Part shown: positions 2 through 47,136 of the stretch, piece by piece
How positions within the stretch are numbered: position 1 is the first letter of the stretch
Layout of the letters: every line of letters begins with the position of its first letter
Notes under the pieces: model-generated
Database searches by the model: none
What the model was told of the DNA's origin: nothing
Seen by the model: the letters and a program-made list of their open reading frames with translations, nothing else
Position numbers and translations under genes: made by a program
Assembly: GCA_028044295.1 (NCBI GenBank)
Contig: JAOFSE010000004.1
Location: 62,001-126,000, forward strand
DNA: 64,000 nucleotides
Origin: Sulfurimonas sp.
GTDB taxonomy: Bacteria; Campylobacterota; Campylobacteria; Campylobacterales; Sulfurimonadaceae
Direction: 5' to 3'

Positions 2-2491
2 GTTTTACAAGATTTAAAAAGTTCACTCAATACGAATAATACACTGATTTTAGAAGCACCTCCTGGAGCAGGAAAGAGTACTGTAGTACCTATCTCTTTA
101 CTCAAGGAAGCTTGGCTTGATGAGAAAATAATAATCATGCTAGAACCTCGTCGAGTTGCTGCTCGTATGGTTGCAACTCAAATGGCAAAAACTTTGGGTG
201 AAGATGTAGGACAAAGTGTAGGTTACCAAGTAAAGATGGATAGTTGTTTTTCTAAACAAACTAAAATACTAGTAGTAACAGAAGCCATTCTAGTACGTAA
301 ACTCCAGAGTAACCAAACCTTAGATGATATTGCTATGGTTATCTTTGATGAGTTTCATGAGAGAAGTATTCATACAGACTTATCTTTAGCACTATCCTTA
401 CAAGTGCAAGAGCTTCTTCGCGATGATTTAAAAATCTTGATTATGTCTGCTACACTTAATTCAGATGAGATTTCTTCTTTACTAGGTGACATTCCGGTTA
501 TCACTTCAAAAGGTAAGGTGTACGATGTCCAAAACATTTACCTAGATATCAAAACAAAACAACCAGATCCAAGATCACTAAATGCCCTACTTCTTAACAC
601 AACACTTAGAGCTATAAAAGAAAACGATGGAGATATATTAGTCTTTTTAGCAGGGGTTAAAGAGATAAGAAACTTACAAACCGCACTTTCAAACTCTTCT
701 ACATGTAGAGATGTTTTAGTACTACCGCTCTACTCATCTTTGCCAAAAAAAGAGCAAGACAGAGCGATAAACAAGTCTTCAAAAAGAAAGATAATACTAA
801 GTACAAATATCGCTCAAACATCGCTTACTATAGAGGGTGTCAAAGTAGTCATAGACTCAGGTCTAGAGAAACAATCACAATATAACTACTCAAATGCAAT
901 GGATCATTTAGAGTTAACATTTATCTCAAAAGATTCAGCTGTTCAAAGAGCCGGTCGTGCAGGTAGGCTTTCAAGTGGAGTATGTTACAAACTTTGGCAT
1001 GAGGGTAAGATTCTACTACAATCAACTAAACCTGAAATACTACGAGCAGATTTAACTTCACTTATGTTGGATTTAGCTTTATGGGGAGTTGAAGAGTTTA
1101 ACGAGTTAAAGTTCCTAGATGTCCCAAATGAAAAAATTATCCAAAACACTAAAGAGGTTTTACAAGAACTCGCTATGCTTGATGACTCCTTTAAAATCAC
1201 TAGTTTTGGAAAAGAGGCTCTTAGCTTAGGACTTCACCCAAGATTTGCTTATATGATTTTAAAAGCTAACGACTTAGGCTTTGCATATGAAGCCTGTCTC
1301 TTAGCATCACTACTGGGTGAAAAAGATATCTTCAAAAATTCTAGCAGAGACAGCGATATACTCTCAAGGTTCATACACCTTTTTGAGAAAGATTTTGACA
1401 ACGAGCACATAAATAGGTTCAAAGCCAAAGAGGTCATAACTGGAGCCGAGTTTTTTTACAAAAAGTTAAAAAGCATCACTAGAGTTGTAAACAAAAATAT
1501 TTCACTCAATCAAGAGATGATAAGCGTACTCCTTCTTTTTGCTTATCCTGACAGACTAGCACGTCGCAGAGCGAACAATGACAACAAATACATACTCAGT
1601 AATGGCAAGGGTGCAGTTCTACATGTAGAGGATTCTCTGTTTAATGAAGAGTACTTAGTGGTAGCAAACTTACATGCACAAGAGAGAGACTCCTTTATAA
1701 ACCAGGCACTGAGCATTAGCAAAGCTGACATAGAGGAGTACTTCTCTGTATTTATAATAAATAAAGAGTCCATCACTTACAACAAAGAAGCGAAGAAATT
1801 TGACATAAGAGAGAGTAGTTACTTTTTAAAATTACAACTTGATTCTAAAGCAGTTTCCTCATCAAACCAAGACTTTAAAAAACTACTTTTAGAGTTAGTA
1901 AAGACAGAGGGTTTAGAGATTTTGACTTGGAGTAAAAAAGCTACAAGACTTAAACACAGAGTAAATTTTTTAAACCTACATGTAGAGTTTGTAGACTTTA
2001 GTAATGAGGCATTACTTGGTAGTCTCGAGAGTTGGTTAGAACCATATCTTTCAGGTGTAACAACCATCAAAGCACTTGAAACTCTAGATGTTTACACTAT
2101 GTTACTCTCACTTATTTCCTGGGAAAAACAACAACTTTTAGACACTTTAGCACCTTTACATGTAGAAGTTCCTAGTGGCTCTAAAATACACATAGACTAC
2201 TCAGACTATGAAAAACCATCAATGAGCGTAAAGATACAAGAAGTTTTCGGACTGCACGAAACACCAAAGGTACTCAACAACACTTTGGCGCTACAAGTCC
2301 ACCTACTAACACCTGCGATGACTCCCATGCAGATAACCTATGATTTGAAAAGCTTTTGGGAAAACTCATACGCCGAAGTCAGAAAAGAAGTAAGAGGTAA
2401 ATACAAAAGACACTACTGGCCAGAAGACCCTTTTGAAGCTATAGCTACCAGTAAAACTAAAAAGCATATGATGAAGAACTTGAAAGAGTGA
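2..2491 (+). CDS. hrpB: ATP-dependent helicase HrpB, 5'-truncated by window edge
   Basis: Frame of ORF 137..2491 is open to base 2 and encodes Walker A APPGAGKST upstream of the called ATG; DEFHERS, SATLN, QRAGRAGR helicase motifs; HrpB-like C-terminus (YWPEDPFEA). Confidence 0.93.
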   Translation, partial: VLQDLKSSLNTNNTLILEAPPGAGKSTVVPISLLKEAWLDEKIIIMLEPRRVAARMVATQMAKTLGEDVGQSVGYQVKMDSCFSKQTKILVVTEAILVRKLQSNQTLDDIAMVIFDEFHERSIHTDLSLALSLQVQELLRDDLKILIMSATLNSDEISSLLGDIPVITSKGKVYDVQNIYLDIKTKQPDPRSLNALLLNTTLRAIKENDGDILVFLAGVKEIRNLQTALSNSSTCRDVLVLPLYSSLPKKEQDRAINKSSKRKIILSTNIAQTSLTIEGVKVVIDSGLEKQSQYNYSNAMDHLELTFISKDSAVQRAGRAGRLSSGVCYKLWHEGKILLQSTKPEILRADLTSLMLDLALWGVEEFNELKFLDVPNEKIIQNTKEVLQELAMLDDSFKITSFGKEALSLGLHPRFAYMILKANDLGFAYEACLLASLLGEKDIFKNSSRDSDILSRFIHLFEKDFDNEHINRFKAKEVITGAEFFYKKLKSITRVVNKNISLNQEMISVLLLFAYPDRLARRRANNDNKYILSNGKGAVLHVEDSLFNEEYLVVANLHAQERDSFINQALSISKADIEEYFSVFIINKESITYNKEAKKFDIRESSYFLKLQLDSKAVSSSNQDFKKLLLELVKTEGLEILTWSKKATRLKHRVNFLNLHVEFVDFSNEALLGSLESWLEPYLSGVTTIKALETLDVYTMLLSLISWEKQQLLDTLAPLHVEVPSGSKIHIDYSDYEKPSMSVKIQEVFGLHETPKVLNNTLALQVHLLTPAMTPMQITYDLKSFWENSYAEVRKEVRGKYKRHYWPEDPFEAIATSKTKKHMMKNLKE
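699..708. repeat. CTACATGTAG palindrome (within hrpB, STCR frame)
   Basis: Perfect copy read directly. Confidence 0.9.
1619..1628. repeat. CTACATGTAG palindrome (within hrpB, LHVE frame)
   Basis: Perfect copy. Confidence 0.9.
1976..1985. repeat. CTACATGTAG palindrome (within hrpB, LHVE frame)
   Basis: Perfect copy; a one-mismatch copy TTACATGTAG follows at 2156. Confidence 0.9.
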
Positions 2492-2549
2492 GTACTACTA
2501 TTCATTCCCTTTAATAAGCTAAATTACTGTATACTTCTCTTATAACTTT

Positions 2550-2882
2550 GAGTTATTTCATACTCGTAGGCAAGTAGGCCACTTTTATATAGTGGACTTA
2601 TCATTTTTACTTCGATTTATTTCACGATATCTATTCTTATCTTCTTCAGAAATAAGTTCTTTTGCACTATGTTTTATACATGTCGCAAGTCACGCCAACG
2701 ATAAACAGAAATTTCACTAACACCGAACCTTCTTTTTCTTGAACAGTACCCATTAAACACCTTAAGTAGCCATGTATTAAGGTAACGAATTTTATATACT
2801 GCTTTTCTCTTGAGGAAACCCTATACATATTTTGGTCATGAGTTTGGATATCTTCCAAATAAAGATGCATCTTCTTTTCCAC
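2550..2882 (-). pseudogene. Possible decayed transposase (OrfA-like HTH) remnant
   Basis: Minus-strand reading gives RKRRFGVSEISVYRWRDLRHV* then, in another frame, SAKELISEEDKNRYREINRSKNDKSTI*; HTH-like FGVSxxSVYRWR broken by stop/frameshift; no intact ORF. Confidence 0.35.
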
Positions 2883-2899
2883 CTACAAATAAGGTAATT

Positions 2900-3922
2900 A
2901 TGAAAATTGAAATTATTACAACACCAAATGAAGAACTTAAAGAGACAGGATTTGGAAGTATAAAAGCATGCAAAAATGTTTTACATTCCATCAATAATAT
3001 GGGGCATACCGTTGAACTCACTATCTGTAAATCACTTCAAGATTTAAAAGATGTTGTGCAGAGAAAACCGGACCTAGTTATCTTAGCCGTAAAGTATATT
3101 GTACTTAATGACATAGAAAATATTTGGTTATCAGAATATTTTGCAAAAAATGGTATTAACCATTCTGGTTCATCAAGAGAAACATTAAAGTATGACTCCG
3201 ATAAAGTACTTGCAAAATCTTTTTTAAGAAACAAAGGTATCAATACTGCAAAATACTTCACTGCAATTCCGGGAGAATACAAATCAACTTTTGATTTACC
3301 AACGGGCTATCCTCTTTTCATAAAACCACTCAATGCTGCAAATGGGAATGGTATTGATGATTTATCACTAGTAAATAATTTTGAAGAGTTTCAAAGTAAA
3401 GTACTCTCCTTATATGAGTCGTATGATGCTCCAGTACTAGTCGAAGAGTATATAAGTGGTCAAGAGTTTACTGTTGCAATCATTCAAACAAAGGATGATG
3501 GTTTAATTGTATCTGCTCTTGAAATAATAGCACCAGAATCAAGTAATGGTCTAAGAATTTTAGGAGAAAAAGTAAAAAGAGATGACACTGAAGTACTTAG
3601 AAAAACTAAAGACAATTTAATGATGGACAGAGTGAAAACACTTGCTATAGATGCTTATATTGAACTAGGTATAAGGGACTATGGACGAATTGATGTTAAA
3701 ACTAATAAGTATGGACACTGTTTTTTCATGGAAGTTAACTTAGTTCCAGGCATGGGAAATGGTTCAAGTTATTTTCCTATTGCCTGTGCATTAGAGCATA
3801 ATTTAAGTTACTATGATGTAATCAAACTAATCGTAGATAAAGGTATAAGTAGAGTACCATCAAATATTCCACTCCAAAAGCCACTACTGATAGATTCTGT
3901 TGAATTAGCGCCAGTAATATAA
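2900..3922 (+). CDS. ATP-grasp ligase, D-alanine--D-alanine ligase-like
   Basis: GYPLFIKPLNAANGNGI, VLVEEYISGQEFTV, FFMEVNLVPGMGNGS motifs; start at ATG 2900 preferred over 2810 because of preceding aaggtaatt. Confidence 0.82.
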   Translation: MKIEIITTPNEELKETGFGSIKACKNVLHSINNMGHTVELTICKSLQDLKDVVQRKPDLVILAVKYIVLNDIENIWLSEYFAKNGINHSGSSRETLKYDSDKVLAKSFLRNKGINTAKYFTAIPGEYKSTFDLPTGYPLFIKPLNAANGNGIDDLSLVNNFEEFQSKVLSLYESYDAPVLVEEYISGQEFTVAIIQTKDDGLIVSALEIIAPESSNGLRILGEKVKRDDTEVLRKTKDNLMMDRVKTLAIDAYIELGIRDYGRIDVKTNKYGHCFFMEVNLVPGMGNGSSYFPIACALEHNLSYYDVIKLIVDKGISRVPSNIPLQKPLLIDSVELAPVI

Positions 3923-3938
3923 TAAGTAATATACATAA

Positions 3939-4661
3939 ATGAAACAGATAAGCAACAATGTATTTTGCGATGATTATATATCTAACTTGAAACTTGATAC
4001 AAAACTCATGGCAAATCCATATTATGATTATCCATATCTTATAATCAAAAACTTTTTTTCAAAATCTATTTGTAATGATATAGCTAATTATACTTTTAAT
4101 GCTTCAGAGGTCCATAAAGCTCAAGTAAAGACTAGGCTGTTAAGTAGTGTGGTTGCTCCTAGTATAGATGAGTCTATTCGCAAGACTGCAATACATACAC
4201 TGCCAAATATATTTTTAGATATGTATGAAGAAAACTTCAAAGTTCATCAGGCAAAAATTGAAGATTATTTCTCTCTTGCACTGACTACATCTACAAAAGT
4301 ACAAACACTAGAATATACAAAGGGCTCGTTTTATATAAAGCATGCTGATGACTCAAGCGAACTTGTTAATAAAAATGGTCAAACTGTTGGTTTTACACAG
4401 GTGGCACCTCTACGTAAACTATCTAGCATACTATTTTCAACTTCACATGATACACACACTAGTGACATACATAGCTTTAAGGGTGGTGAATTACTCTTTA
4501 ATTATCTATTTGATAAAGAAGGTAATCAGGTAAAAATTTATCCTGAAGCAGGAGATATGATTGTCTTTCCTAGTAATCCAATATATAGCCATGAGGTTCT
4601 TCATGTAGATGATGGGTATAGACTTAGTTTGGTTCAATGGCATAATGCAATTATTAACTAA
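3939..4661 (+). CDS. 2OG-Fe(II) oxygenase (prolyl-4-hydroxylase-like fold)
   Basis: HxD (IKHADDSS), GGELLF, EAGDMIVFPSN, distal H and R (SHEVLHVDDGYRLSLVQW). Confidence 0.75.
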   Translation: MKQISNNVFCDDYISNLKLDTKLMANPYYDYPYLIIKNFFSKSICNDIANYTFNASEVHKAQVKTRLLSSVVAPSIDESIRKTAIHTLPNIFLDMYEENFKVHQAKIEDYFSLALTTSTKVQTLEYTKGSFYIKHADDSSELVNKNGQTVGFTQVAPLRKLSSILFSTSHDTHTSDIHSFKGGELLFNYLFDKEGNQVKIYPEAGDMIVFPSNPIYSHEVLHVDDGYRLSLVQWHNAIIN

Positions 4662-4682
4662 AACACTTAAAGGAAATATAAC

Positions 4683-4961
4683 TTGTTTAATTTTTTTAGA
4701 GAAATAAAAGATAAAGAAACAAAAAAAACAAAACTACAGAATCGTTTACTCGATATTAGAATAGGTAGACAGTATGCTAGAGGAGAGGACATGGGTGGCA
4801 ATACCTATGAATGTTTTAATAATACAGCAGAAGTTGTTTATAATCGTTCAATTGAAAATTCCGATGATTTAAAAGATGTTAATAAATCATATTTTATAGA
4901 AGGTTACAATGCCCAAACAGAAGCATTATATCGGGTAGTCAAGCTTAAGTTGAGAAGGTAA
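4683..4961 (+). CDS. Small hypothetical protein (92 aa, TTG start)
   Basis: Follows 3939..4661 by about 20 nt with RBS-like aaagga before TTG. Confidence 0.5.
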   Translation: MFNFFREIKDKETKKTKLQNRLLDIRIGRQYARGEDMGGNTYECFNNTAEVVYNRSIENSDDLKDVNKSYFIEGYNAQTEALYRVVKLKLRR

Positions 4962-5087
4962 AGGGCTCAGATTCGCAAAACTGGAATGTCTTATGAAGTG
5001 CAATACTTAGGTATATACCATTGTACTATCCAGCAAAATAAAATACCTTTTTTGTTACAATACCATACGAGATAAATAAGGAATATA

Positions 5088-5561
5088 ATGAAAGATTTTT
5101 CAATACTAAAGCGTAATTTAGAAACATTTTTAGAAATATGTATGCAAAAAACAAAAGAAGAAAAAACTACCAAAAGGTCAAAGCCCTCAAACATAAGAGG
5201 AACAATAAAAGGTTTCAATCTTACAGCAAATTTTGGTTCAGGTAAAGGTGCTAAAAGACCATTGTTAGCATTTTTAAAAGATGAGAACACCATATCTAAT
5301 GGTATCTACCCATTAATTATATTTGAACCATCGTTCAATGAGTTAATAGTATGTAAAGGTATTAGTTTTGATAACAAACCAAATACTAAATGGATAAAAA
5401 ATGTCAGGTCTGATATAAATTTTAAAAACACTAAGTACAAAGATGGTCTAAGAACAAATAGTTATTTTAGAAGTTCATACTCAACTACTAACTTGACAGA
5501 TACTACAATTGAAAATATCCAAAAAGATTTAGAAAGTATTATGAATGACTATCCCAACTAA
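5088..5561 (+). CDS. Stand-alone McrB N-terminal domain-like protein (MrcB_N/DUF3578-like)
   Basis: FGSGKGAKRPLLAFLKDENTISNGIYPLIIFEPSFNELIVCKGISFDNKPNTKW ... LESIMNDY resembles recalled E. coli McrB N-terminus (FGYGNFTSIPWFAFLGEGQEASNGIYPVILYYKDFDELVLAYGISDTNEPHAQW ... LDNIINDY); ORF ends with no AAA+ domain. Confidence 0.78.
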   Translation: MKDFSILKRNLETFLEICMQKTKEEKTTKRSKPSNIRGTIKGFNLTANFGSGKGAKRPLLAFLKDENTISNGIYPLIIFEPSFNELIVCKGISFDNKPNTKWIKNVRSDINFKNTKYKDGLRTNSYFRSSYSTTNLTDTTIENIQKDLESIMNDYPN

Positions 5562-5568
5562 ATAATTT

Positions 5569-5578
5569 CTACATGTAG
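5569..5578. repeat. CTACATGTAG palindrome (intergenic)
   Basis: Perfect copy 8 nt after the McrB-NTD stop codon. Confidence 0.9.
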
Positions 5579-5667
5579 ATATATAAAAATGACATTTTGC
5601 AATAAATTTAAACCTATACTAAATAATTGAATATTATTCCCAATTACAAAAGGTTTAAAGGCTAAAA

Positions 5668-5994: not shown

Positions 5995-6127
5995 TAGACG
6001 TATCTGCATCTGTCTCTTGTATTTCATCACTGTTTTGAGTTAACTTTTTCTTACGCTTTTCTTCTTTTTTTTTCTCTTTTTCGAGCTCACGAGCTCGTTT
6101 CTCATAACTATAGTTTGTTTTTGCCAT
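5975..6127 (-). CDS. Small charged protein (50 aa) not in the supplied ORF track
   Basis: Read directly: MAKTNYSYEKRARELEKEKKKEEKRKKKLTQNSDEIQETDADTSTTKSQY*; upstream aagaaggttac on minus strand. Confidence 0.6.
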   Translation of the reverse strand: MAKTNYSYEKRARELEKEKKKEEKRKKKLTQNSDEIQETDADTSTTKSQY

Positions 6128-7604: not shown

Positions 7605-7929
7605 AAATGCGATTCAAACTTTTTTAGAGTATAACGGCATAGACCCAGAGACAGCAATGGGTCAAGACAACCAACTTGAAACGAGATACTTTGTTGGTGA
7701 GAGCAGAAAATTTTCAGATGTAACAAGAATAGGTTTTAACATTATTGGTACTAACGACATAAATGTTTACATGTACGAAATAAATCATATTGAATTTGAA
7801 ACAGAGTTCAAGGTTACCGAACAAACATTTGTGTTTGATGAAGAGTTTGATACTTTAACAATCACTGGTGACAATTCATCAAAGCATGGAGCTTATAAAA
7901 TCATTATCAGCAGTATCTATCTAGATTAA
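7579..7929 (+). CDS. Hypothetical protein
   Basis: ORF 7495..7929; internal ATG 7579 more likely start. Confidence 0.5.
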   Translation: MTENSIKNKNAIQTFLEYNGIDPETAMGQDNQLETRYFVGESRKFSDVTRIGFNIIGTNDINVYMYEINHIEFETEFKVTEQTFVFDEEFDTLTITGDNSSKHGAYKIIISSIYLD

Positions 7930-7931
7930 AA

Positions 7932-8428: not shown

Positions 8429-9076
8429 TTACTCTTCTTCGTTATCTTCTGCTTTGTCGGCTTTTCTTGACTTTCTATTACGGTGACGGTTTTTCTTCTT
8501 TTTTTCTTTTGTTTTGTGAGTTGCATCTTTCTCATCAGATGGTGTAAAACCTTCTAAAAATTCTTGCTTTATTTCATTTTTTAGTCTCATTTCTATTACA
8601 CTAAGGTATCCCTCTTCCTCAGTTGACACAAAAGAGATCGACTCACCTACTTCATCAACTAAAATAAGACGACTAAAATAATCTTCATGTTCAGATGGAA
8701 GGTCATAGTTTATTATTGTTTCTATACCCTTAAGTTCTATAGATTGTAAGATTTTGTCCGTAGTTATAATTATGTTTATCTCGCCCTTGTTAAACTCATC
8801 TGCTGCTTTGTCTATCTGCTCTTTTCTATGGTTACCGTGAATGGCTGTAGCTAGTATCTCTTTTGAGTTTAGATATGTGCAAAGTTCATCGGCTCTTTTT
8901 TTACTTTTAGCCACAACTATACTTTGCTTCTTTTCATTACATGTAAGATACATCTCAAACATGGAAGGCTTGTCTTTTTGTTCAGCAAAATATACTACTT
9001 GCTTTGTACGTTTTCCAACATTGACATTATCATAATACTTTTTTTTACTATATTTTTTAGTCGTTTCTTCGGACAT
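8429..9076 (-). CDS. Stand-alone helicase C-terminal (RecA2-like) domain protein with basic tail
   Basis: IVVAKSKKRADELCTYLNSKEILATAIHGNHRKEQIDKAADEFNKGEINIIITTD...INYDLPSEHEDYFSR; KEKKKKNRHRNRKSRKADK tail. Confidence 0.75.
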   Translation of the reverse strand: MSEETTKKYSKKKYYDNVNVGKRTKQVVYFAEQKDKPSMFEMYLTCNEKKQSIVVAKSKKRADELCTYLNSKEILATAIHGNHRKEQIDKAADEFNKGEINIIITTDKILQSIELKGIETIINYDLPSEHEDYFSRLILVDEVGESISFVSTEEEGYLSVIEMRLKNEIKQEFLEGFTPSDEKDATHKTKEKKKKNRHRNRKSRKADKAEDNEEE

Positions 9077-24440: not shown

Positions 24441-27400
24441 TAGTTTATTTCCTCTTGTGGTGATTTTATTTTAAATACTACTGCATAGAGTAGTGGTACG
24501 TAAATTAGGTTCAGTACTGTTGCCCATGCTATACCAAATCCTAGTGATATTGCCATAGGTTGAAGTATCATAGCTTGGCCTGATGCAAAAAATATTAGGG
24601 TTGAGAGACCAAGTACAGTTGTCAAAGACGTAAGTAAAATAGGTCTAAGCCTCGTTCCTGCTTGTTTCATCAGTTGTTCTGTATCACGTGCATGTTTTAT
24701 GAAGTTTACAACTATAAGTCCATCATTGACAACTACACCGGCAAGGCCTACTATACCTATCATTCCCGGCATAGTAATATTTATACCCATTAACCAGTGT
24801 CCAAAGAAAACACCAAGTAAAACTAGTGGTATAGTACTTATAACTATAAGTGGCTTTCGTATAGAGTCAAAAAGCCAAACTAAAGTAATAAAAATTAAAA
24901 AGATAGCTATCAGAGCTGAACGCATCATCTCATTCATATTCTTTTTGTTCTCTTTTTCTTCACCTTTTATCTCTATTTTGTAGCCATCTGACTTTAGTTC
25001 TGAAAAAGTTGTCTTTAACTTTTTCATAGTTTCAGAGGATGTTATGACCTTTTTATCTAAAGATGCAAATACAGTGTTGAGTCTAACACCATCTTCTTTT
25101 TTAAGAGCGACAAAGCCTTGTACCATTATGAACTCACATACATCACTTAAAAGTACATACTGCTCAGATGATGGTACTTTAACCTCAACACTATTTATAG
25201 AGTTTATGTCTTCATTTACTCCACTCTCTATCTTTATACGAACAAGACCTTTAGTGTTGAACATTTTTCCATACTCACCCTTTAAGTAGTACGAACGAAG
25301 TTCTCTTGAAATCAGCTCTTCATTGAAGCCAAGTTGCTGTCCATACTCATTTACACGGAGCTTTAACTCTTTTTCACCTATCTTAGAGTCATCTGAGATG
25401 TTGTTAACACCATCTATGGACTCAAGAGCATCTTTTAAGATCATCACACCTTCTAAGCTTTTCTTCTCATCTTTAGAGCTTATACTTATCTCTATATCAG
25501 AGGCAACTACTCCAGCTCCAGGCACATTTACAACAAGCTCTTCAAAAACTAAATCATCCCCATCTTTTAACTCTCTAAAAGTCTCTGCTACTTTATCTAT
25601 CTCTACAGATATACTTTTTGCATCTTTAGTTCTCGTTAATACGTCTTTGTTATATTCTATTGATAAGTAGGGACTTATGTATCTATCAAAAGCATTATCA
25701 GGTGCTCTCTCTTTTAAATCTACAAATATATGAAATAGATGATCCCCAGTTTCAGCTATTCTTTTAGCATCTAGTTTCATACCTATCACGGACGTTATAG
25801 AAGATATATCATTACCATCTATTTTCTCTAAAAGTTTCTTTTCTAACCTAGTTACATGTAACTCTGTATCTTCTAGTTCACTGTTGATATTTACATTACC
25901 AGTTACATAGATTTGTGTAGTATCAAAATCTGGAAAAAGTTGAAATTTTGAGTTTTTTATCATTACAAATGTTAGCCCTAAAATGGTTACTACTATGACT
26001 ATAAGAGATGTCCACTTTCTTTGAAAAACAAAGTGTAGTGCCCCGCTATGCCATCCGCCAAACTTCTTCCAAATCTTTTTTGTAAAACTTTCATCTTTAG
26101 AGACTCTCAAAAAGTCATGCGCATGTAAAGGAAGAAAGTAAAAGGCCTCAAAAAGTGAAGAGAGTAAAAGAACAGTGATCATAATAGGAATAATCTTTAT
26201 AAACATTCCCATCTCACCAGTTAGAAGAAGCATAGGTAAAAATGCAAAAACTGTAGTAAGTGTGGCAGTTAAAACAGCTGGAAACATCTCTAGAGCTCCA
26301 GTGATAGCAGCTTCTCTTCTCTCCATACCCTCCTCTAAATGTCTGTAAATATTTTCAGCTACAACTATAGCTTCATCCACTAGCATACCTAGTGCTATAA
26401 GTGCACCAAGAAGTGATAGCATATTTAAACTATCACCCATCAACTCGGTTACAATCAGACCCATCATAAAACTCATAGGGATACCAATAGCTACAACCAT
26501 AGCAATACCACGATTTATAAAAAACAGCATAGCTATAAAAACGAGCATAAGACCAAAAGCGATATTAGAAAAAACAGTATTCAGACGATTTTTAATCCAT
26601 ATAGATGTATCTGTATAGATGTCATATTGTAACTCGGGGTATTTTTTTGAACTCTCATCTAAAAGAGCGCGTATCTCTTTTACAAGTTCTATAGAGTTTC
26701 CATCTTTAGACTTTGTAATATTAATAGATACATTTCTAACGCCATTATAGTGTGATAACTCTACTTCATCACGAAGTTTAAATGATATGTCTGCAATGTC
26801 ACCTATACGTACTCTAGAATTACCAACACTAATGACAGTATCTTCTATGCTCTCTTTACTTTTTTCGCCATTATAAGTAGATATATATAGATGTGCACCC
26901 TTCTCTTTTATAGTACCTATTGGAAAGATTGAACTTATATCTTTAAGTGAAGAAATTGCCAATGATGGTGCCAGTCCAAAAGCTAATAGTTTTTGCTCAT
27001 TTATCTTTATAACAAGTTCAGTATCAGAATCACCACGAATAACTATTTCAGCTAAGTCTTTTAACTTACTTAGCTTACTCTTTAACTCTTCTGCACGTTC
27101 AAGTAATTCTTCCTTACTCTTATCACCGGCAAGCGCCACTAGTACAAGTGGAAAGTTATGAAGTCTTATCTTTGCTATTGGCTCAGACATATCAGCTGGT
27201 AAGTCTTTTTTTACATTACTGACTACATCTTTTACATCGTTTAGTACACTTATGTTCTCTGAGCCAGTTTTTATATCTGCTCGTATTGTAAACGAACCAT
27301 TTTTGATTGTACTTTTGATAGTATCTAACTCATTGATGTTTTGAAGGTCGTCCTCTATCGTTTTCACAACCATATTGTCGAGTATATCAGCAGATGTTCC

Positions 27401-27847: not shown

Positions 27848-28770
27848 CGCTTACTCATTTGAAATACTCTCATTTTAGCACTTCGACTTCTAACATTCTC
27901 TTTTAGTTCTTCATCCGTAGCCATAATAGGTTTTTTAGTTAAAACTTTACCTAGTGAGTTGTCATTACTACATGTACATCTCATTGCTTCAGGTGGACAT
28001 ATACAATTTTTCTTCCAATCAGAAAAAGTTTGTTTTACTATTCTGTCTTCAAGGGAATGAAAAGATATTATTGCTACTTTTGCATTGCTAAGCTTTGCAT
28101 CTGCGATAGTCTGTAGTAGCGATTTGAGCTCACCTAGTTCATCATTCACCTCTATGCGGATTGCTTGCATAAGTAGAGTAGCTGGATGAATCTTCTTGCC
28201 TTGAGGCATATGAGGTTTAAGAGTTGCACTTAACTCTTTAGCAGACGTAAATGGACGATTTTCTACAATAGCAGATGCAATTTTTTTGTAGTTTCTCAAC
28301 TCTCCATACTCATAAAGAATTCTTTCTAACTCATCACTAGAGTAATTGTTTACTACATCACTAGCACTAAGTGGCGCATCTTTGTCCATACGCATGTCAA
28401 GATTATCACTGTCATAAGAGAAACCCCTTGTTTTTTCATCAAGTTGGAGCGATGAAACTCCTATGTCTGCAAGTATTCCTCGGATATTTTCAACGCCATA
28501 TTCAGCAACAATATCTTTTATAACATTAGAAAAACGTCCCTTTTTTATGACAGCCCTATCTCCATAGCCTTTTAGCTTACATGTAGAAAAGATTATAGCT
28601 GTCTCATCTTGGTCTATTCCTATGAGTTTAATATTAGGATTTGCTTCAAGTATCATAGATGAGTGCCCACCATAACCAAGTGTGCAGTCTATAACTATTC
28701 CATCTTTTATATCAGAAAAAGTATCTACTACTTGAGAGTATAGAACTGGAATATGTGGTGTCTCTTGCAT
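27844..28770 (-). CDS. rsmH: 16S rRNA (cytosine1402-N4)-methyltransferase
   Basis: HIPVLYSQVVDTF, DCTLGYGGHS, GFSYDSDNLDMRMD, ISFHSLEDRIVKQTF. Confidence 0.95.
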   Translation of the reverse strand: MQETPHIPVLYSQVVDTFSDIKDGIVIDCTLGYGGHSSMILEANPNIKLIGIDQDETAIIFSTCKLKGYGDRAVIKKGRFSNVIKDIVAEYGVENIRGILADIGVSSLQLDEKTRGFSYDSDNLDMRMDKDAPLSASDVVNNYSSDELERILYEYGELRNYKKIASAIVENRPFTSAKELSATLKPHMPQGKKIHPATLLMQAIRIEVNDELGELKSLLQTIADAKLSNAKVAIISFHSLEDRIVKQTFSDWKKNCICPPEAMRCTCSNDNSLGKVLTKKPIMATDEELKENVRSRSAKMRVFQMSKR

Positions 28771-28880: not shown

Positions 28881-29939
28881 ATGGAACTAGTTAACCAATA
28901 CTTTATTGAGATAATATCTGCAATATCCATAGTAACACTTCTACTAATATATTTACTATTTAGAAAACCGTCAAATACTATCAAACCAATACATGAAGAA
29001 AAAGAACCAGATAAAGAAGAGCTACTTGTAGAAGATAGTGCACCTGTTCAAGAGCTACATGTAGAAGAGAAAAAACCATTAGAAAAAATTGCTACTCCTA
29101 CTAGACCAGCGCAAATAAATCGAGTAAAAAGAGAAGTAGTTCCACATGGTAAAATAGTCAAAGATTCTTTTAAAGATTTTACTGGAATGAGAATCTTAGT
29201 AGCTGAAGACAACCATATAAATCAAAAAGTAATTACAGCACTTTTAGCAGACTCTGGAATTGAAGTTATTGTTGTCAATGATGGACAAGAATGTCTAGAT
29301 ACTTTAAAAACAGACACCAATTTCACTCTTATACTTATGGATGCGCATATGCCAATTTTAGATGGCTTTCAAGCAACACGTAACATTAGAAAAGAGCATT
29401 CATTAAATCATATCCCTATTGTCGCTCTTAGTGGTGATACAGCAGTAGATGACATTCAAAACATGATGAACGTAGGGATGGAAGCTCATCTTGAAAAGCC
29501 TCTTAAGATGGATGCTTTGTATGATATATTTTACATATATACAAGTGAAGAAGGATTGAATCAAGCAACAGAATCAAAAAGCCTAGAACCAGAAACTAGT
29601 TCTCTCAACTTCAATATAGAAAAGGGATTATCAACCTGTGGTAATGATAAAGATTTTTTCGATGAAATTCTAGATGACTTTATAGCTAAATATGGTGAGT
29701 CTGCTGATATTCTGACAAATGATTTAAACTCAAATAACAGTCTACATGCTGCCCGTCAACTTTTAGACATATCAGGGGTTGCAGCAAATATAGGTGCATA
29801 TAATCTTTACAAAGCATCTTTAGAGTTAAAAAACAGTATTAAAAGCCCTGATGATTTAGAGTATATCAATATACTAAAAGACTTTAAAAGAGCACTTATC
29901 TCTACTCTTGATGAGATAAAAACATATCAGGCAAAATAG
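28881..29939 (+). CDS. Membrane-anchored response regulator with Hpt-like C-terminal domain
   Basis: N-terminal TM; REC ILVAEDNHINQKV...LILMDAHMPILDGF; C-terminal LDISGVAANIGAYNL. Confidence 0.8.
   Translation: MELVNQYFIEIISAISIVTLLLIYLLFRKPSNTIKPIHEEKEPDKEELLVEDSAPVQELHVEEKKPLEKIATPTRPAQINRVKREVVPHGKIVKDSFKDFTGMRILVAEDNHINQKVITALLADSGIEVIVVNDGQECLDTLKTDTNFTLILMDAHMPILDGFQATRNIRKEHSLNHIPIVALSGDTAVDDIQNMMNVGMEAHLEKPLKMDALYDIFYIYTSEEGLNQATESKSLEPETSSLNFNIEKGLSTCGNDKDFFDEILDDFIAKYGESADILTNDLNSNNSLHAARQLLDISGVAANIGAYNLYKASLELKNSIKSPDDLEYINILKDFKRALISTLDEIKTYQAK
29055..29064. repeat. CTACATGTAG palindrome (within 28881 CDS, LHVE frame)
   Basis: Perfect copy. Confidence 0.9.
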
Positions 29940-32832: not shown

Positions 32833-34299
32833 AAACTTCAGTATCTCTTTTTCTATATCTTCTTTTTCTATAATGGTGTCTTGAGTTATCTCTTTCGTAA
32901 ATAAACCTTTTACCATAGCTGGTATCTCTAAGTTAGCCTCTTTAGATATTGATTCTAAGGCTTCAAGATCATGAGCATCAACTTCACCAGTTAAAGCATT
33001 TGCAATCACAGGGGAAAACTTTGTCCACTCTGCAGTTGAGTAAGCAATAGTTTTGATTTTAGAATCACTGCATGTCTCGTAAGATTTTATACATGTAGCA
33101 GTATGTGGATCCATAAGATAGTTACAGTTTGTGAAATAGTCTTTTATGTAAGCCTTACCTTCATCGCCATTACAAAAGTCAGCATCAAAGCTTTTTTGTA
33201 GTTCTTCTAACTCTTGTGTTGTCAGTTCGTAAAAATCATTTTTTTCTAAAGATTCCATTAACTCTCTAGTTCTCTCGAAGCCAAACATATCATAAAGAAT
33301 TCTCTCTACATTTGATGACTTTAAAATATCCATAGCTGGAGAAGTAGTACCTACAACCTCAGAGTCTCTAAGGTCATACTTACCAGTTTTTATCAATTTA
33401 GTTAAAACATTATTCTCATTTGAAGATATAATAATCTTCTCAACAGGAAGTCCCATTTTCCAGGCATAGTAACCACCAAGTGCATTACCAAAATTTCCAC
33501 TTGGAACATTTAAGTAGACTTTTTCACCCATTGTCGTTGCACCTTGACGTACTAGCTCTAAATATGAATGAATATGATATATAATTTGAAAAATTATTCT
33601 TCCAAAGTTTACAGAGTTTGCAGCTGATAAAGATACATGCTTCTCTTTAAGTGCAGATTTGAAAGTATCAGATGCAAGAAGTCTTTTAAGAGCATTTTGT
33701 GCATCATCAAAAACACCATTAATACCAATAACCTTTAAGTTCTTAGCATCTTCAGTAACCATTTGTAGTCTTTGAACATCACTTGTCCCACCATCAGGAT
33801 AAAGACAAGCCACTTGAACATTCGCACGATTTTTAAATGTCTCTAAAGCAGCTGGACCAGTATCACCACTTGTTGCAGCAAGAATTAAATAGTTTTCATT
33901 TCTTTTTTGAGCAATTGATGAAAGTACTATTCCAAAAGGTTGAAGTGCCATATCTTTAAATGCACGAGTAGGTCCATGATATAGCTCACTTACATAAAGA
34001 TTCTCTTTTACTTTTACCACAGGTACAGGATTTGAAGCATCATCAAACTCATCATAAAGGTTTAAAGCTTCATCGATTACTTCTTTTTCGATATCAATTT
34101 CAAAACGATTTAACATATCACTTGCTAACTCTTTGTATGTTGAGTTAATATGTTTATTTAAAAAATCTTCTCCAAGTTGAGGAAGTGATTCAGGAACATA
34201 CAGGCCACCGAATGATGCTATAGGAGCTAATATTGCTTGAGAGAATGTAACACTTTGAGGTCTATTTTTGTCTTGTCCACGAGTTTGAATAAAGTTCAT
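32827..34299 (-). CDS. thrC: Threonine synthase
   Basis: FIQTRGQDK, YHGPTRAFKDMALQPFG, AATSGDTGPAALE, VPSGNFGNALGGYYA. Confidence 0.94.
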   Translation of the reverse strand: MNFIQTRGQDKNRPQSVTFSQAILAPIASFGGLYVPESLPQLGEDFLNKHINSTYKELASDMLNRFEIDIEKEVIDEALNLYDEFDDASNPVPVVKVKENLYVSELYHGPTRAFKDMALQPFGIVLSSIAQKRNENYLILAATSGDTGPAALETFKNRANVQVACLYPDGGTSDVQRLQMVTEDAKNLKVIGINGVFDDAQNALKRLLASDTFKSALKEKHVSLSAANSVNFGRIIFQIIYHIHSYLELVRQGATTMGEKVYLNVPSGNFGNALGGYYAWKMGLPVEKIIISSNENNVLTKLIKTGKYDLRDSEVVGTTSPAMDILKSSNVERILYDMFGFERTRELMESLEKNDFYELTTQELEELQKSFDADFCNGDEGKAYIKDYFTNCNYLMDPHTATCIKSYETCSDSKIKTIAYSTAEWTKFSPVIANALTGEVDAHDLEALESISKEANLEIPAMVKGLFTKEITQDTIIEKEDIEKEILKFL

Positions 34300-38693: not shown

Positions 38694-39979
38694 TATTCTA
38701 TAGGGCTACTTTCTTGTATATTTACAGTTTTATCTGTCTTTATAACAACTTCTATACTTGGTTCAGACTTGATACCATGCTCATCAACAGAAAAAACAAC
38801 ATACTTATAAGTGTTCTCAGGAGCTATTTCCGTGTCTACAAAGTCAAGACCTTTAATACCTTCAAACTCTTCTTCAAGACCTTTAAAAAGGTTTTTTCTA
38901 TATCTTTTTTGAACAATATAACTAACAGCTCTTTCATCTTCTTTATTCCAAGATATTTTGATCTCATTTTTAACAAGTTCAGCAGAAACTAGTGATGGTG
39001 TTTTAGGCTTTATAAGAGTCATACCCTGAATAGAATACTTATCGTGTATACTCTCTAATCCATCTTTATCGACAACACTAACTCTGTAAAAATATTGCTT
39101 AGCATCTTCTTCAACTGAGTCAATATAAACATTGTCTTGTTGTTCTGAGATAACTTTATAACTACCATCTACACTTTCAGCACTATAAACTCTATATGCT
39201 AGAAAATCTGTAGAAGCTGTAGCATTCCATCTAACTTCAATCTTTTTAGGAAGATCAATTGTAGCAGTAATACCATCAACATCAAGAGGAAGAGCTTTGG
39301 TTATAACACTTACTTCTTTTGTTGGCTTAGATACTAACTTGTCATATGTAGTTGAAAGAATACGGTACATGTAAGTAAATCTATCTTTTAAGTCATCATC
39401 AATATACTCTGCACTAAGTCTACCATCAACAGTAGTAACATCTTTCCATTTGTCAGACTCTAAAGTTCTTCTTTGAATTATATATCCATTAACCTTCTCA
39501 TTTGAGTGAGGTCTCCATAAAACTTTTGCTGAACGAGGCATATTTTGAACAGCATGAATCCATGAAACAGATTCCATTACAGGAAGAGACTCTATAAGTG
39601 TTGCCTCACTATTTAAAGATTCAGCTTTATTAGAGTATGTTTTAAAATAATAGCTGTACTTACTTCCTGGCTCTATATCAGTATCAAGGTAGTGAGTTGT
39701 AAAACGATTATTTACAGTATCATGGTAGTCACTAGTGGTCTCTCCTGCAACATCAACCTTCGCCTTGTATATGTAAACACCTTTAACTCTTTGATCACTA
39801 AATGATTCCCATTCCAAAGCTATTGCATTAACATCAACAATAGTTCCATTTTTTGTCAACTTTACTGTAGGCAGTGTCTCATCAATAGCTGCCTCTTTCT
39901 TCGGTGTTGGTTTAGGACTACAACCACTAAGAACTAGTAGTGAAGCTGTTAAGAATATGGCTAGGTTTTGTAACTTCAT
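38693..39979 (-). CDS. Fibronectin type III repeat lipoprotein
   Basis: [11 protein letters not shown] lipobox; repeated FnIII-like strands ([34 protein letters not shown]). Confidence 0.8.
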
Positions 39980-40901: not shown

Positions 40902-40914
40902 ATTCTTTACCTTT

Positions 40915-42063: not shown

Positions 42064-44251
42064 ACTGATAAACCAACTCGATTTAAATGAACATATTGAT
42101 TCATTTAAACAGTTTTTCTCACGAGAAAGTGAACTCTATATCGAGGGAGACCAAGAACTTCATCATAAATACATTACTGCCCTAGACAAAATAGAGTTTA
42201 AAGCACCTCCTAAGGTAACTGACTTTAGTGAGATAAAACTGCACCTGAAAAAGCATGGTGTTCTAAAGTTTGAGCAAATCTTTGAGATTGTTAAAGTTGT
42301 TAGGTACTTTCGTTACTTTAAAAACCGTGAGTTAGATGGAATCATTGGTGAATGGATGTCTAAGTTCATTATAGAAGAGAAGTTCAACGAAGTAGACAAG
42401 TACTTCACTCACGATGGAAAATTTGAAGAGAATTTAGATGAGATGCTATTTGGACTAGGAAGTAGAATCAAGGAGCATAAAGCGAACATAAGTAGTTCTA
42501 TAAAAAGGCTGACTTCAAGCTCGAAACTATCTTCGTATCTTATCGACTCACAAGTACATCTACTCAATGATGAGGAATGTCTCTTAGTTAGAGGTGGTTT
42601 TAACCATGTTCTAAAGGGTGCCGTTATTGGGAGAAGTACAAGTGGTGGTTTTTTTGTCGCACCAGACTCCATTTTAAAATCTAAAGAACAGATTCGTTTT
42701 ATAAACCAAGAGAGAGAAGCTATCTTTTATACATATGCAAAAGAGTTTTCCTCTAAACTAGCTGAACTACAGCCATTTATAAACTTTATAGACAAGGAAT
42801 TTACTAAGTTTGACAACTATCAAGCGAGGGTTCTTTTTGCGCGCTCTTCTAACCTGCAAATCATAAAGTCTAAAAAAGATTCAAAAATAGTTCTTAATAG
42901 TTTTATACACCCTGCTCTAACAAATGCTAAACCTATAAATGTAGACTTCTCTAAAAACATTTTAATGGTAACAGGTGTAAATGCTGGGGGTAAGACTATG
43001 CTATTAAAGTCGATTCTCTCTGCATCATTTATGGCTAAATACATCATCCCTATGAAGATTAATGATGAAAAGTCACACATAGGTAGTTTTAAAAATATAC
43101 TTGCTATCATAGATGACCCACAAAATGTTAAAAATGACATATCAACCTTTGCTGGTCGAATGCAAGAGTTCTCGCATATCTTTAGTTACAAGTCCGCTCT
43201 GGTTGGAGTTGATGAGATAGAACTTGGAACTGACTCAGATGAGGCTGCCGCTCTTTTTAAAGTTATGCTTGATGAGCTTATAAGTAAAGGACAAAAGGTA
43301 GTAGTTACTACACACCATAAACGTCTTGCAGCTCTTATGGCGGACCGTAACGATGTAGAGCTTATGGCTGCAATATACGATGAAGAACACAGACGCCCAA
43401 CATACGAGTTTATGCAAGGGATTATAGGTAAATCATATGCTTTTGAGACAGCAAGTAGATATGGAATCTCAAACAAAATTGTAGACGAGGCAAAAAATGT
43501 TTATGGGGACAATAGTGAAAAACTTAGTCTTCTCATAGAACGTGGGTCTCAACTAGAACGTGAACTAAAACAAAAGCATGCAAAAGTTGATGAAAAACTA
43601 GATGAGTTAGCAAAAAAAGAGTTAGATATCAAAGCTGAAAAAGAGAAGCTTTTACAGGAGATAGAAGAGCAACGATCTGCACTTAAAAACAGTTACGCAG
43701 TTGCTATCAACGAAGCAAAATCAGCAGCAAAAGCTGGAGACACAAAAGCCATTCATCGTGCTATGGATAAAGCAAATAAGAAGTTACCAAAAGAGAAAAA
43801 AGAGTTAGAGAACTTACAAGTAGAATTTAAAGTTGGTGACCAGGTCAAATACCACTCTCAAAAAGGTACTATCGTTCATATGAAGGGTAAAAAAGATGCG
43901 ACCATAGAAGTTGAAGGAATGAAGGTACATGTAAAGACTAAAAACCTTCGTCCAACTCAGATAGTGAAACCAAAACCTAAAACAAATGTAAACCTACATG
44001 TAGAAAAGAGAAGTGGACTCAAATGTGACCTCCACGGTATGAGAGCAGATGAAGCAACAGAGACTTTAGACAAGTTCATCTCCGATGCACTTATAAATGG
44101 TTGGGATGAAGTTATCATCTATCATGGGATTGGTACTGGTAAACTTTCATACGCTGTTAAAAACTTTTTAATTGCTCATCCAAGAGTAAAAGGTTTTGAT
44201 GATGCACCACATCACCTTGGTGGCTTTGGTGCTAAAGTTGTTACACTTTAA
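42035..44251 (+). CDS. mutS2: MutS2-type ATPase with Smr domain
   Basis: MVTGVNAGGKTMLLKS, VGVDEIELGTDSDEAAALF, TTHHKRLA; C-terminal Smr CDLHGMRADEA...IYHGIGTGKL. Confidence 0.93.
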   Translation: MQEERKALYKLINQLDLNEHIDSFKQFFSRESELYIEGDQELHHKYITALDKIEFKAPPKVTDFSEIKLHLKKHGVLKFEQIFEIVKVVRYFRYFKNRELDGIIGEWMSKFIIEEKFNEVDKYFTHDGKFEENLDEMLFGLGSRIKEHKANISSSIKRLTSSSKLSSYLIDSQVHLLNDEECLLVRGGFNHVLKGAVIGRSTSGGFFVAPDSILKSKEQIRFINQEREAIFYTYAKEFSSKLAELQPFINFIDKEFTKFDNYQARVLFARSSNLQIIKSKKDSKIVLNSFIHPALTNAKPINVDFSKNILMVTGVNAGGKTMLLKSILSASFMAKYIIPMKINDEKSHIGSFKNILAIIDDPQNVKNDISTFAGRMQEFSHIFSYKSALVGVDEIELGTDSDEAAALFKVMLDELISKGQKVVVTTHHKRLAALMADRNDVELMAAIYDEEHRRPTYEFMQGIIGKSYAFETASRYGISNKIVDEAKNVYGDNSEKLSLLIERGSQLERELKQKHAKVDEKLDELAKKELDIKAEKEKLLQEIEEQRSALKNSYAVAINEAKSAAKAGDTKAIHRAMDKANKKLPKEKKELENLQVEFKVGDQVKYHSQKGTIVHMKGKKDATIEVEGMKVHVKTKNLRPTQIVKPKPKTNVNLHVEKRSGLKCDLHGMRADEATETLDKFISDALINGWDEVIIYHGIGTGKLSYAVKNFLIAHPRVKGFDDAPHHLGGFGAKVVTL
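43994..44003. repeat. CTACATGTAG palindrome (within mutS2, LHVE frame)
   Basis: Perfect copy. Confidence 0.9.
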
Positions 44252-44923
44252 ATGAATATAATTTTTGACAACTCAGATTTTGTAATCTTTGATAAACCAG
44301 CCCAGATGAACTTTCACTCTGAAGATGGTGAAGCTGGATTTGTAGTTCAAGCTACAGAGCAGTTAGGTTTAGAGCAACTATATAGTGTTCACCGTCTAGA
44401 TAAGATGACATCAGGTCTTATAATTCTTGCTAAATCAAGTGAGGTTGCAAATGAGTTCTCACAAATGTTTGCCTCTAGAGATATAGAGAAGTTTTACTTA
44501 GCACTTAGTCTGAGAAAACCAAAGAAAAAACAGGGTTGGATAAAAGCAGATATGGACTCTGCACGTAGAGGTTCTTACAAGCTTCTTCAAACAAAAAACA
44601 ATCCTGCCATAACTCAGTTTGTAAGCTCTACATGTAGAGTTGGTGAGAGAATCTTTCTCATCAAACCTCACACAGGAAAAACTCATCAAATTCGTGTCGC
44701 ACTTAAGAGCATTGGCTCACCTGTAGCTGGTGATATTCGTTATGCAAATGCAGATGAAGCAAAAAAAGAAGATAGAGGTTATTTACATGCTTACGCTCTG
44801 AAGTTTTCATTTAAAGATGAAAATTTTATCTTTACATGTAAGCCATCTTTTGGAGAGAAGTTTTTATCTCAAGAGTTTAAAGAAAAACTAGAAGCATGGT
44901 CAAATCCATGGGAATTATTTTAA
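44252..44923 (+). CDS. RluA-family pseudouridine synthase
   Basis: YSVHRLDKMTSGLIILAKS; PHTGKTHQIRVALKSIGSPVAGDIRY. Confidence 0.9.
   Translation: MNIIFDNSDFVIFDKPAQMNFHSEDGEAGFVVQATEQLGLEQLYSVHRLDKMTSGLIILAKSSEVANEFSQMFASRDIEKFYLALSLRKPKKKQGWIKADMDSARRGSYKLLQTKNNPAITQFVSSTCRVGERIFLIKPHTGKTHQIRVALKSIGSPVAGDIRYANADEAKKEDRGYLHAYALKFSFKDENFIFTCKPSFGEKFLSQEFKEKLEAWSNPWELF
44628..44637. repeat. CTACATGTAG palindrome (within RluA-family gene, STCR frame)
   Basis: Perfect copy. Confidence 0.9.
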
Positions 44924-44932
44924 GGAAATAAA

Positions 44933-45310
44933 TTGTTAGAAAAAGAATATACAAAACAAAACTTGAGAAGATTAGTCATACAGTTTTACACAAAAGTTTT
45001 AGATGATGAGTTAATATCTCCTGTGTTTATAGGTAAGTTAGGAGCTGATTTAGCGGGAGCTACCTGGGGACCTCACTTAGATACTATTACAGAGTTCTGG
45101 GCATCATTTACAACTGGAGGTTCTACTTATAATGGAAGTCCATTTGCTCCTCATACGCAACTAGGAAAACTTTCTCGTGAGATGTTTGAAAGATGGTTAA
45201 AACTCTTTCATGAGACGCTCGATGAGACCTATGAACCTCATCTGACTAAAGTGCTTAAAGATAGAAGTGAGCTAATAGCTGGAAACTTCATGCGTAATCT
45301 TCGTCTGTAG
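44933..45310 (+). CDS. Group III truncated hemoglobin-like
   Basis: FYTKVLDDELISPVF, HLDTITEFWASFTTG, PHTQLGKLSREMFERWLKLFHETL. Confidence 0.8.
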   Translation: MLEKEYTKQNLRRLVIQFYTKVLDDELISPVFIGKLGADLAGATWGPHLDTITEFWASFTTGGSTYNGSPFAPHTQLGKLSREMFERWLKLFHETLDETYEPHLTKVLKDRSELIAGNFMRNLRL

Positions 45311-45332
45311 TATTTTAGGATAGAATTTACGA

Positions 45333-46523
45333 ATGAAAAAAATAGCAATTATTGGCGGTGGTGCATCTGGTCTTTTATGTGCAATCTTTTGTGCTCAAAA
45401 ATCTTTACATGTAGACCTTTTTGAGCAAAACTCCAAGTGTGCTAAAAAGATTTTAGTTTCTGGAAATGGTCGCTGTAACATTACAAACAGATCTCTACAT
45501 GTAGAAGACTTTTTTGGCGACAATATTAGTTTTGTTAAAGATGCTCTTGATGAGTTTAGCTTTAAAGAGTTTGAGAAGTTTTGCCATAGCATAGGACTTC
45601 TTCTTGACATTAAAGATGATGGAAGATGCTACCCACTTAGCAATGAAGCAAAAAGTGTTTCATCCTTACTTATAAACTATGCTACTAGACTTGGTGTGAA
45701 TATACATGTAGACACTAAAATCACAGATATTAAAAAACTTTGTGATGATTACCACTCAGTAGTTATAGCTACAGGTTCTGAGGCAGCTTCACATCTTGGT
45801 GGGAACCGTGACGGTTTAGAGTTTGCTTTAAACTTTGGACATACTACAGTTCCTACTTACCCATCTTTAGTACAGTTTCACCTCAACTCAAATATAGCAC
45901 ATAAGATGAGTGGAGTTAAACTGGCTGGTGAAGTCACACTCCTTGTTAACAACAAAAAAGACTCTACATGTAGAGGTGATGTTTTGTTCACAAACTACGG
46001 TGTTTCAGGCTTTGCAATACTCGATATTTCCCAAAGAGCAAGTGTTGCGCTTATGGAGTACTCGAAGGTAGATATATCTGTAAATCTATTGCCAGAGTTT
46101 AATGCTAAAAAACTCTCAGACCATATAACTAAAGTAGCCTCTCTTCAAAAAGAGTTTACAATACTCGATATCTTAGCTGGACTAGTACCAGTTAAAATAG
46201 CTCATGGTTTACTAGAAGACTTAAAACTTTCACACTCTACATGTACTGAAGATATCGGTACTAAAATGGCTAAGAAAATTGCAAACCAAATGTTAAACTG
46301 GAGATTTGAAGTTCAAGAGACTCACGGTTTCCGTCATGCAGAAGTTGCTGGTGGTGGAGTTAACACTACTGAAGTTAATCCTAAAACTATGCAATCACTA
46401 AAACAAGACAATCTTTATTTCTGTGGAGAGGTTTTAGATGTAGTTGGTCGTCGTGGTGGTTACAACTTTGCATGGTGCTGGGCTAGTGCTTATATGTGTG
46501 CAAAAGATATAACAAAAGCTTAA
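45333..46523 (+). CDS. HI0933/YhiN-family FAD-dependent oxidoreductase
   Basis: IIGGGASGLLCAIFCAQ, KKILVSGNGRCNITN, GRRGGYNFAWCWASAY. Confidence 0.92.
   Translation: MKKIAIIGGGASGLLCAIFCAQKSLHVDLFEQNSKCAKKILVSGNGRCNITNRSLHVEDFFGDNISFVKDALDEFSFKEFEKFCHSIGLLLDIKDDGRCYPLSNEAKSVSSLLINYATRLGVNIHVDTKITDIKKLCDDYHSVVIATGSEAASHLGGNRDGLEFALNFGHTTVPTYPSLVQFHLNSNIAHKMSGVKLAGEVTLLVNNKKDSTCRGDVLFTNYGVSGFAILDISQRASVALMEYSKVDISVNLLPEFNAKKLSDHITKVASLQKEFTILDILAGLVPVKIAHGLLEDLKLSHSTCTEDIGTKMAKKIANQMLNWRFEVQETHGFRHAEVAGGGVNTTEVNPKTMQSLKQDNLYFCGEVLDVVGRRGGYNFAWCWASAYMCAKDITKA
45495..45504. repeat. CTACATGTAG palindrome (within HI0933-family gene, LHVE frame)
   Basis: Perfect copy; one-mismatch copies at 45405, 45702 and 46237 in the same gene. 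Confidence 0.9.
45964..45973. repeat. CTACATGTAG palindrome (within HI0933-family gene, STCR frame)
   Basis: Perfect copy. Confidence 0.9.
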
Positions 46524-46568
46524 CTATTTTTAGATAGACTTATACAATCATCAAAAAAGGACTCTCTT

Positions 46569-47123
46569 ATGTCAACACCACTTATTATTTTAATCGTAGT
46601 CGCTATTATATTAGTTCTTATGTACAACTCACTAGTAGCTAAAAAGAATCAAGTTGAAAATATATTCGCAAGTGTAGATACCGTGCTTAAAAAAAGGTAC
46701 GACCTTATACCAAACCTTGTTGCATCTGTAAGTAAGTATATGGAACATGAGAAATCTCTTTTAGAAGAGGTGACTAAACTCCGTGCCGAAGCGAATAAAC
46801 CAAATATCAGTGATGAACACAAAATAAACCTAGACGCAAAAATGAGCTCTGCTCTTGGCTCTATTATGATAGCTGTTGAGAATTATCCTGATTTAAAAGC
46901 AAACGAAAATGTTATGCACCTTCAACATTCACTTAATGAGGTAGAAGAACAGATTTCTGCAGCTAGACGCTCTTACAACCAAGCTGTTACGGACTATAAT
47001 AATGCCATAGAGATGATTCCCACAAATATTATGGCTAACTTTATGAGTTATAGAAGAAAACAAGTTTTTGAAATAGTAGAGAGTGAGAGAAAAAATGTAA
47101 ATGTAAAAGAGCTTTTTAACTAA
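46569..47123 (+). CDS. LemA family protein
   Basis: RYDLIPNLVASVSKYMEHE, AARRSYNQAVTDYNNAIEMIPTNIMA. Confidence 0.92.
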   Translation: MSTPLIILIVVAIILVLMYNSLVAKKNQVENIFASVDTVLKKRYDLIPNLVASVSKYMEHEKSLLEEVTKLRAEANKPNISDEHKINLDAKMSSALGSIMIAVENYPDLKANENVMHLQHSLNEVEEQISAARRSYNQAVTDYNNAIEMIPTNIMANFMSYRRKQVFEIVESERKNVNVKELFN

Positions 47124-47126
47124 AGC

Positions 47127-47136
47127 CTACATGTAG
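47127..47136. repeat. CTACATGTAG palindrome (intergenic, abuts DUF3137 start codon)
   Basis: Perfect copy. Confidence 0.9.

Follow-up and report, generated by a model that had tools for sequence, protein, structure and literature searches.

A highly iterated palindrome in a Sulfurimonas genome as a probable DNA uptake sequence with interchangeable dialects

The palindrome in the window and across the genome

The window, a stretch of 64,000 nucleotides from contig 29 of a draft Sulfurimonas genome of 1.91 Mb, carries hrpB, mutS2 and the start of valS together with coding sequences (CDSs) for an RND permease, a response regulator and a flavoprotein. The initial annotation had described within it an iterated palindrome, CTACATGTAG, and we analyzed this element as a probable DNA uptake sequence (DUS). 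Each of the ten perfect copies was confirmed at its position, and the one-mismatch copies were confirmed as well, except that the one placed at 33090 starts at 33089. Allowing up to one mismatch, the window contained 23 matches versus 2.46 expected, a number reached in none of 100 shuffles. The copies are listed below without assignment to a strand; ORF denotes an open reading frame.

699..708, CTACATGTAG: in the hrpB (helicase) CDS 137-2491; relatives lack the motif at this position, in-place substitution
1619..1628, CTACATGTAG: in hrpB, frame L-H-V
1976..1985, CTACATGTAG: in hrpB, frame L-H-V
2156..2165, TTACATGTAG: in hrpB; CTACATGTAA at the equivalent position in G031, a distant motif-rich species
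5569..5578, CTACATGTAG: intergenic, directly past ORF 5088-5561
7767..7776, TTACATGTAC: contains the core octamer TACATGTA
8937..8946, TTACATGTAA: in a minus-strand ORF
25852..25861, TTACATGTAA: in the RND permease CDS (minus strand)
27968..27977, CTACATGTAC: in a minus-strand ORF
28577..28586, TTACATGTAG: in a minus-strand ORF
29055..29064, CTACATGTAG: in the response-regulator CDS
33089..33098, ATACATGTAG: in a minus-strand ORF
39365..39374, GTACATGTAA: core octamer
43925..43934, GTACATGTAA: in mutS2
43994..44003, CTACATGTAG: in mutS2
44628..44637, CTACATGTAG: in ORF 44252-44923; no copy in L055
44832..44841, TTACATGTAA: in ORF 44252-44923
45405..45414, TTACATGTAG: in the flavoprotein CDS 45333-46523; same in the relative L055, dialect-B motif here in L065
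45495..45504, CTACATGTAG: in the flavoprotein CDS 45333-46523; no copy in L055
45702..45711, ATACATGTAG: L055 has TTACATGTAG
45964..45973, CTACATGTAG: kept in L055; TTCCACATGC at the equivalent position in L052 and L056 (dialect swap)
46237..46246, CTACATGTAC: L055 has CTACATGTAA
47127..47136, CTACATGTAG: intergenic, adjoins the ATG of ORF 47137-48078; spacer length differs among relatives
55656..55665, CTACATGTAA: close to the valS start

The count of the palindrome in the whole genome was then compared with a third-order Markov expectation, octamer statistics covering the 1.82 Mb of readable sequence. The 10-mer CTACATGTAG occurred in 192 perfect copies over 1.91 Mb, while its reversed control gave none, and the 177 copies in the readable part exceeded the 2.2 expected about 80-fold. 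A count close to this expectation, which the initial annotation had named as a refutation, was thus not observed, and the excess is far larger than the window by itself could reveal. The core octamer TACATGTA returned 652 copies against 48 (z = 87) and ranked first among all octamers. The motif is a genuine tag, repeated in very large numbers throughout the genome. The unit itself had to be redefined: starting from the perfect copies, the profile broadened to YTACATGTAR (543 copies versus 6 for the reversed control) with weakly conserved outer bases, (T)YTACATGTAR(A). A T precedes 131 and an A trails 128 of the 177 perfect copies, outlining a weak symmetric 12-mer, TCTACATGTAGA; the A observed after all ten perfect copies of the window is one half of it. 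The longest stretch of the genome free of the motif is C1:154955-174145, within which a large Eco57I-like methyltransferase/restriction protein of 1268 aa is encoded (C1:168627-172434).

Within the window, the eight perfect copies inside genes all lie in plus-strand genes, the remaining two (5569 and 47127) being intergenic. This pattern is correct locally and was a coincidence, since genome-wide 71 perfect copies fall in plus-strand and 88 in minus-strand genes; a strand- or gene-oriented motif was thus discarded.

About 90% of the TACATGTA copies are coding, and the use of reading frames was as previously proposed, with 307 copies read as L-H-V, 153 as T-C and a single one in the frame containing a stop. 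Conserved L-H-V or T-C peptides, or a codon bias, might in principle generate the motif, as most copies are translated in this way. However, the peptide is missing from orthologous proteins at sites where the DNA motif is absent, LHV occurs 361 times versus 70 expected and the reverse peptide VHL just 41 times, and two reading frames are used in addition to intergenic DNA. A protein-motif artefact is ruled out both by the aligned orthologs and by the excess of copies in intergenic DNA, which leaves this explanation with a negligible probability.

Dialects across the genus and replacement of sites in place

The distribution of YTACATGTAR, hereafter dialect A, was investigated in 100 Sulfurimonas genomes; the comparisons described here have taxa in common and are not independent. 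Dialect A was abundant in 19 genomes (62 to 551 copies) and otherwise near background. Other species of the genus contain motifs of their own, for the most part not palindromic and about equally dense, namely TTCCACATGCCAA, AAACGCAG/AAACGCCA and CTCACGCAG. The top octamers in TACATGTA-poor species were A..TTCCACATGCCAA for dialect B, AAACGCAG for C, TAAACGCCA for D and tcTCACGCAg for E. As to abundance, TCCACATGCM reached 734-878 copies in four genomes, most others having 5-15, AAACGCMR up to 4574 copies against 581 for the reversed control, and CTCACGCAR 532-725 copies in five genomes. Dialect E is also the one carried by Sulfurimonas indica NW8N.

Counting dialects C and D as one class, 55 of the 100 genomes were strong in one of the four resulting motif classes. 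Two classes were found together in a single genome, versus 11.1 expected by random assignment, an overlap as low as this occurring in none of 20,000 draws. The genome in question, G079, carries 141 copies of dialect A and 86 of B, and might represent a dialect switch under way or a mixed assembly.

Dialects cluster by phylogeny, yet they have switched repeatedly. On a ValS tree the dialect labels require 9 changes versus 14.5 when shuffled, with none of 200 shuffles as low. The closest relatives in HrpB are poor in dialect A: G008, the nearest of them (83% identity), contains it just 17 times, as opposed to 1405 copies of dialect C (AAACGCMR; 261 for the reversed control), while the more distant G054 and G031 (71% identity) are rich in YTACATGTAR. 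Across 200 genomes of the order, dialect A was near background in most families; in family f20 most members contain hundreds to over a thousand copies, up to 1635, mainly as TTACATGTAA in the sampled loci (G264, G283, G150 and others), and a sister genus (G199) has 499. The NrfA of family f20 matched several NrfA proteins of solved structure without pointing to one of them.

Sequence alignments were used to follow individual sites. In hrpB, four sites of the window genome arose by substitution in place, with a change of amino acid and no insertion or deletion, and one of them, the 2156 copy, is also present in G031. In the flavoprotein gene, the nearest motif-rich relative, L055, has the motif at four of the five positions occupied here. 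Differing motifs were found at the same position of aligned dialect A and dialect B genomes 10 times, versus 0.26 expected. The suggestion that copies originate as mini-insertions found no support among the coding copies that were aligned, the hrpB sites being free of indels and the spacer at 47127 merely variable in length.

Genomic placement, methylation and chromosome-related alternatives

Copies cluster where genes converge. Convergent intergenic gaps contain 1.42 copies per kb, tandem gaps 0.54, CDSs 0.34 and divergent gaps 0.25, the difference between convergent gaps and CDSs being significant (p = 6e-6). Pairs of copies 8-40 bp apart were three times as frequent as expected (21 versus 7.1), and paired copies form strong hairpins in both dialects A and B (z from -3.4 to -8.0). 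The motif also follows gene conservation: in a 400 kb sample of the closed genome G054, genes conserved with the window genome contain 0.308 copies per kb and homologue-less genes 0.149 (p = 0.006), a two-fold bias, and by window motif density correlated with gene conservation (rho 0.63, p = 0.003). Motif deserts occur in G054 at 405-425, 540-560, 675-695, 1485-1505 and 2565-2585 kb (L249-L251, L257, L265); they share hardly any genes with the window genome and are likely genomic islands.

A binding site for a chromosome-organising or division protein of the SlmA, Noc, MatP or ParB-like kind, with species-specific dialects, would account for a palindrome spread over the whole genome whose core hardly tolerates mismatches. 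Nevertheless, samples of the closed G054 showed no gross zoning between origin and terminus, motif-rich windows being found to either side of the point where GC skew changes and the empty windows being mostly non-conserved ones. Moreover, one would not expect such a site to have non-palindromic dialects, to switch repeatedly or to form hairpin pairs where genes converge, which makes this explanation improbable.

A recombination hotspot similar to Chi, or an FtsK-orienting (KOPS) sequence, would also be short, over-represented and variable within the genus, and AddA-like helicases occur in Campylobacterota. However, dialect A is palindromic and hence unable to orient, and the non-palindromic dialects are strand-balanced, with counts on the two strands within single loci of 8/7, 8/7, 17/9, 9/5 and 7/5 and no significant bias. 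With up to about 1 copy per kb (L071), the motif is also denser than E. coli Chi, which occurs roughly once per 5 kb. We regard a function of this kind as very improbable.

A further possibility is suggested by the highly iterated palindrome HIP1 (GCGATCGC) of cyanobacteria, to which the initial annotation had likened the motif. According to the Elhai model, an orphan methyltransferase would read CATG or ACATGT within the octamer, and the full palindrome would accumulate either by selection or because mismatch repair is biased. The Sulfurimonas element shares with HIP1 a palindromic octamer with a methylatable centre, the extreme over-representation, deviations mostly in the outermost bases (PMC4390886) and the substitution of another motif in alternate species. 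The window genome indeed encodes an orphan methyltransferase of the D12 (N6-adenine) class between tsaD and dxr (G000:C34:26074-27070, L211), with no restriction partner adjacent. Of the 19 dialect-A genomes, 11 have an orthologue, versus about 9 of the 81 others.

On the other hand, a search confined to the D12 class found no such enzyme in G010, G093 and G031, which are closed and rich in the motif, so that a D12 methyltransferase is not required, and about nine genomes have it without the motif. A motif search of the window genome returned, besides the D12 enzyme, the large Eco57I-like protein and no other DNA methyltransferase. The sister dialects, moreover, are non-palindromic and unrelated in sequence. 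The element further differs from HIP1 in being AT-rich and enriched between convergent genes. Orphan D12 methylation was rejected as the common cause, in spite of its association with the motif; the enzyme may be a passenger or a modulator. Overall, an origin of the HIP1 type appears unlikely.

A proposed self tag for natural transformation

The initial annotation had left the choice between a HIP1-like and an uptake-like element. The motif is more than a plain HIP1-like palindrome, and the uptake-like alternative was strengthened by the mutually exclusive dialects, the hairpin pairs, the core-gene bias and the in-place substitutions. These features, including the swap of motifs in place, hairpins at terminators and the equal use of both orientations by the non-palindromic dialects, match, together with the presence of competence genes, the published anatomy of DUS and of uptake signal sequences (USS) (PMC3630211, PMC2734928, PMC7371117). 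On the basis of this analogy, TACATGTA within (T)YTACATGTAR(A) probably works like the DNA uptake sequence of the species.

The closest parallel is provided by the Neisseriaceae, whose DUS, read by ComP, occurs in hundreds to thousands of copies of 10-12 nt, with dialects clustered on the phylogeny, inverted pairs at terminators and a bias towards the core genome, while genes acquired recently lack it (PMC3630211, PMC2734928). The Sulfurimonas element differs in phylum and sequence, in having one palindromic dialect and in that no ComP homologue was identified. The USS of Pasteurellaceae, for which PpdA/ComN is the proposed receptor, similarly combines a core of about 9 nt with weakly conserved flanks, as in dialect B (A..TTCCACATGCCAA), a density of about 1 per 1-3 kb and terminator hairpins; sequence, phylum and the number and divergence of dialects are different. 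Within the same order, Campylobacter jejuni discriminates self from non-self DNA in transformation by a methylation-dependent mechanism at RAATTY, which relies on methylating a short common site and not on an over-represented tag. In the open-access literature, we found no paper in which CTACATGTAG or TTACATGTAA figures as a repeat of this kind and no report of DUS or USS for Campylobacterota.

The genome encodes competence machinery, comprising ComEC (PF03772, C12:105790-107002), DprA (PF02481, C4:13233-14016), ComEA (HHH_3, C6:36113-36362) and several N-methyl (type IV) pilins. Close motif pairs are contained in comEC (C12:105833) and dprA (C4:13381) themselves. When three pilins and ComEA were joined into one query, all 100 genomes gave matches, and comparison of the pilins with the PDB returned weak matches limited to pilin N-termini. 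A cluster of pilin-like proteins with a secreted protein of 1315 aa (C12:135217-141184) possibly forms a pilus-tip complex and is a candidate for the receptor.

In the proposed mechanism, the genome-wide self tag would cause DNA fragments of the own species to be preferred in natural transformation. The tag would be bound at the cell surface by a DNA receptor, most probably a type IV (pseudo)pilin, and would thereby raise uptake; ComEA and ComEC would bring the DNA in, and its recombination would depend on DprA and RecA. Through such biased uptake and the recombination after it, copies would spread in conserved genes and decayed ones would be repaired. Since tags differ among Sulfurimonas species, gene exchange might be steered within a dialect.

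Several observations weigh against an uptake sequence. A mutational halo would be expected around uptake sequences, while one-mismatch forms of the core are about at background (observed/expected about 1), except at the outer bases and for the first T changed to C, indicating that decayed copies are rare. None of the four motif classes was strong in 45 of the 100 genomes; these might harbour further dialects (e.g. TAAGCGCA in L101) or have lost the system. No receptor tracking the dialects emerged from the four proteins searched, pilin identities not being clearly parallel to dialect. Finally, dialect A is palindromic, unlike known DUS and USS, and the dialect cores differ strongly (ACATG versus ACGC) with no common core within the genus, whereas Neisseria dialects have CTG in common (PMC3630211).

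Taken at the level of the phylum, it is fairly likely that Campylobacterota evolved their own uptake-sequence system independently of Neisseriaceae and Pasteurellaceae. Such a system would comprise four or more dialect classes in Sulfurimonas alone, one of them a palindrome, unrelated cores, repeated switching between close relatives and massive use of the palindromic dialect in another family of the order. If this is true, the species' own tag could be put into constructs for Sulfurimonas transformation and motif deserts would offer a means of spotting foreign islands; a new kind of receptor that reads DNA would also be indicated, and dialect switching would become accessible to tests. Experiments have documented sequence-tagged uptake of self DNA in two families; one more case, separate from these and with several interchangeable dialects within a single environmental genus, would show that such systems arise by convergence.

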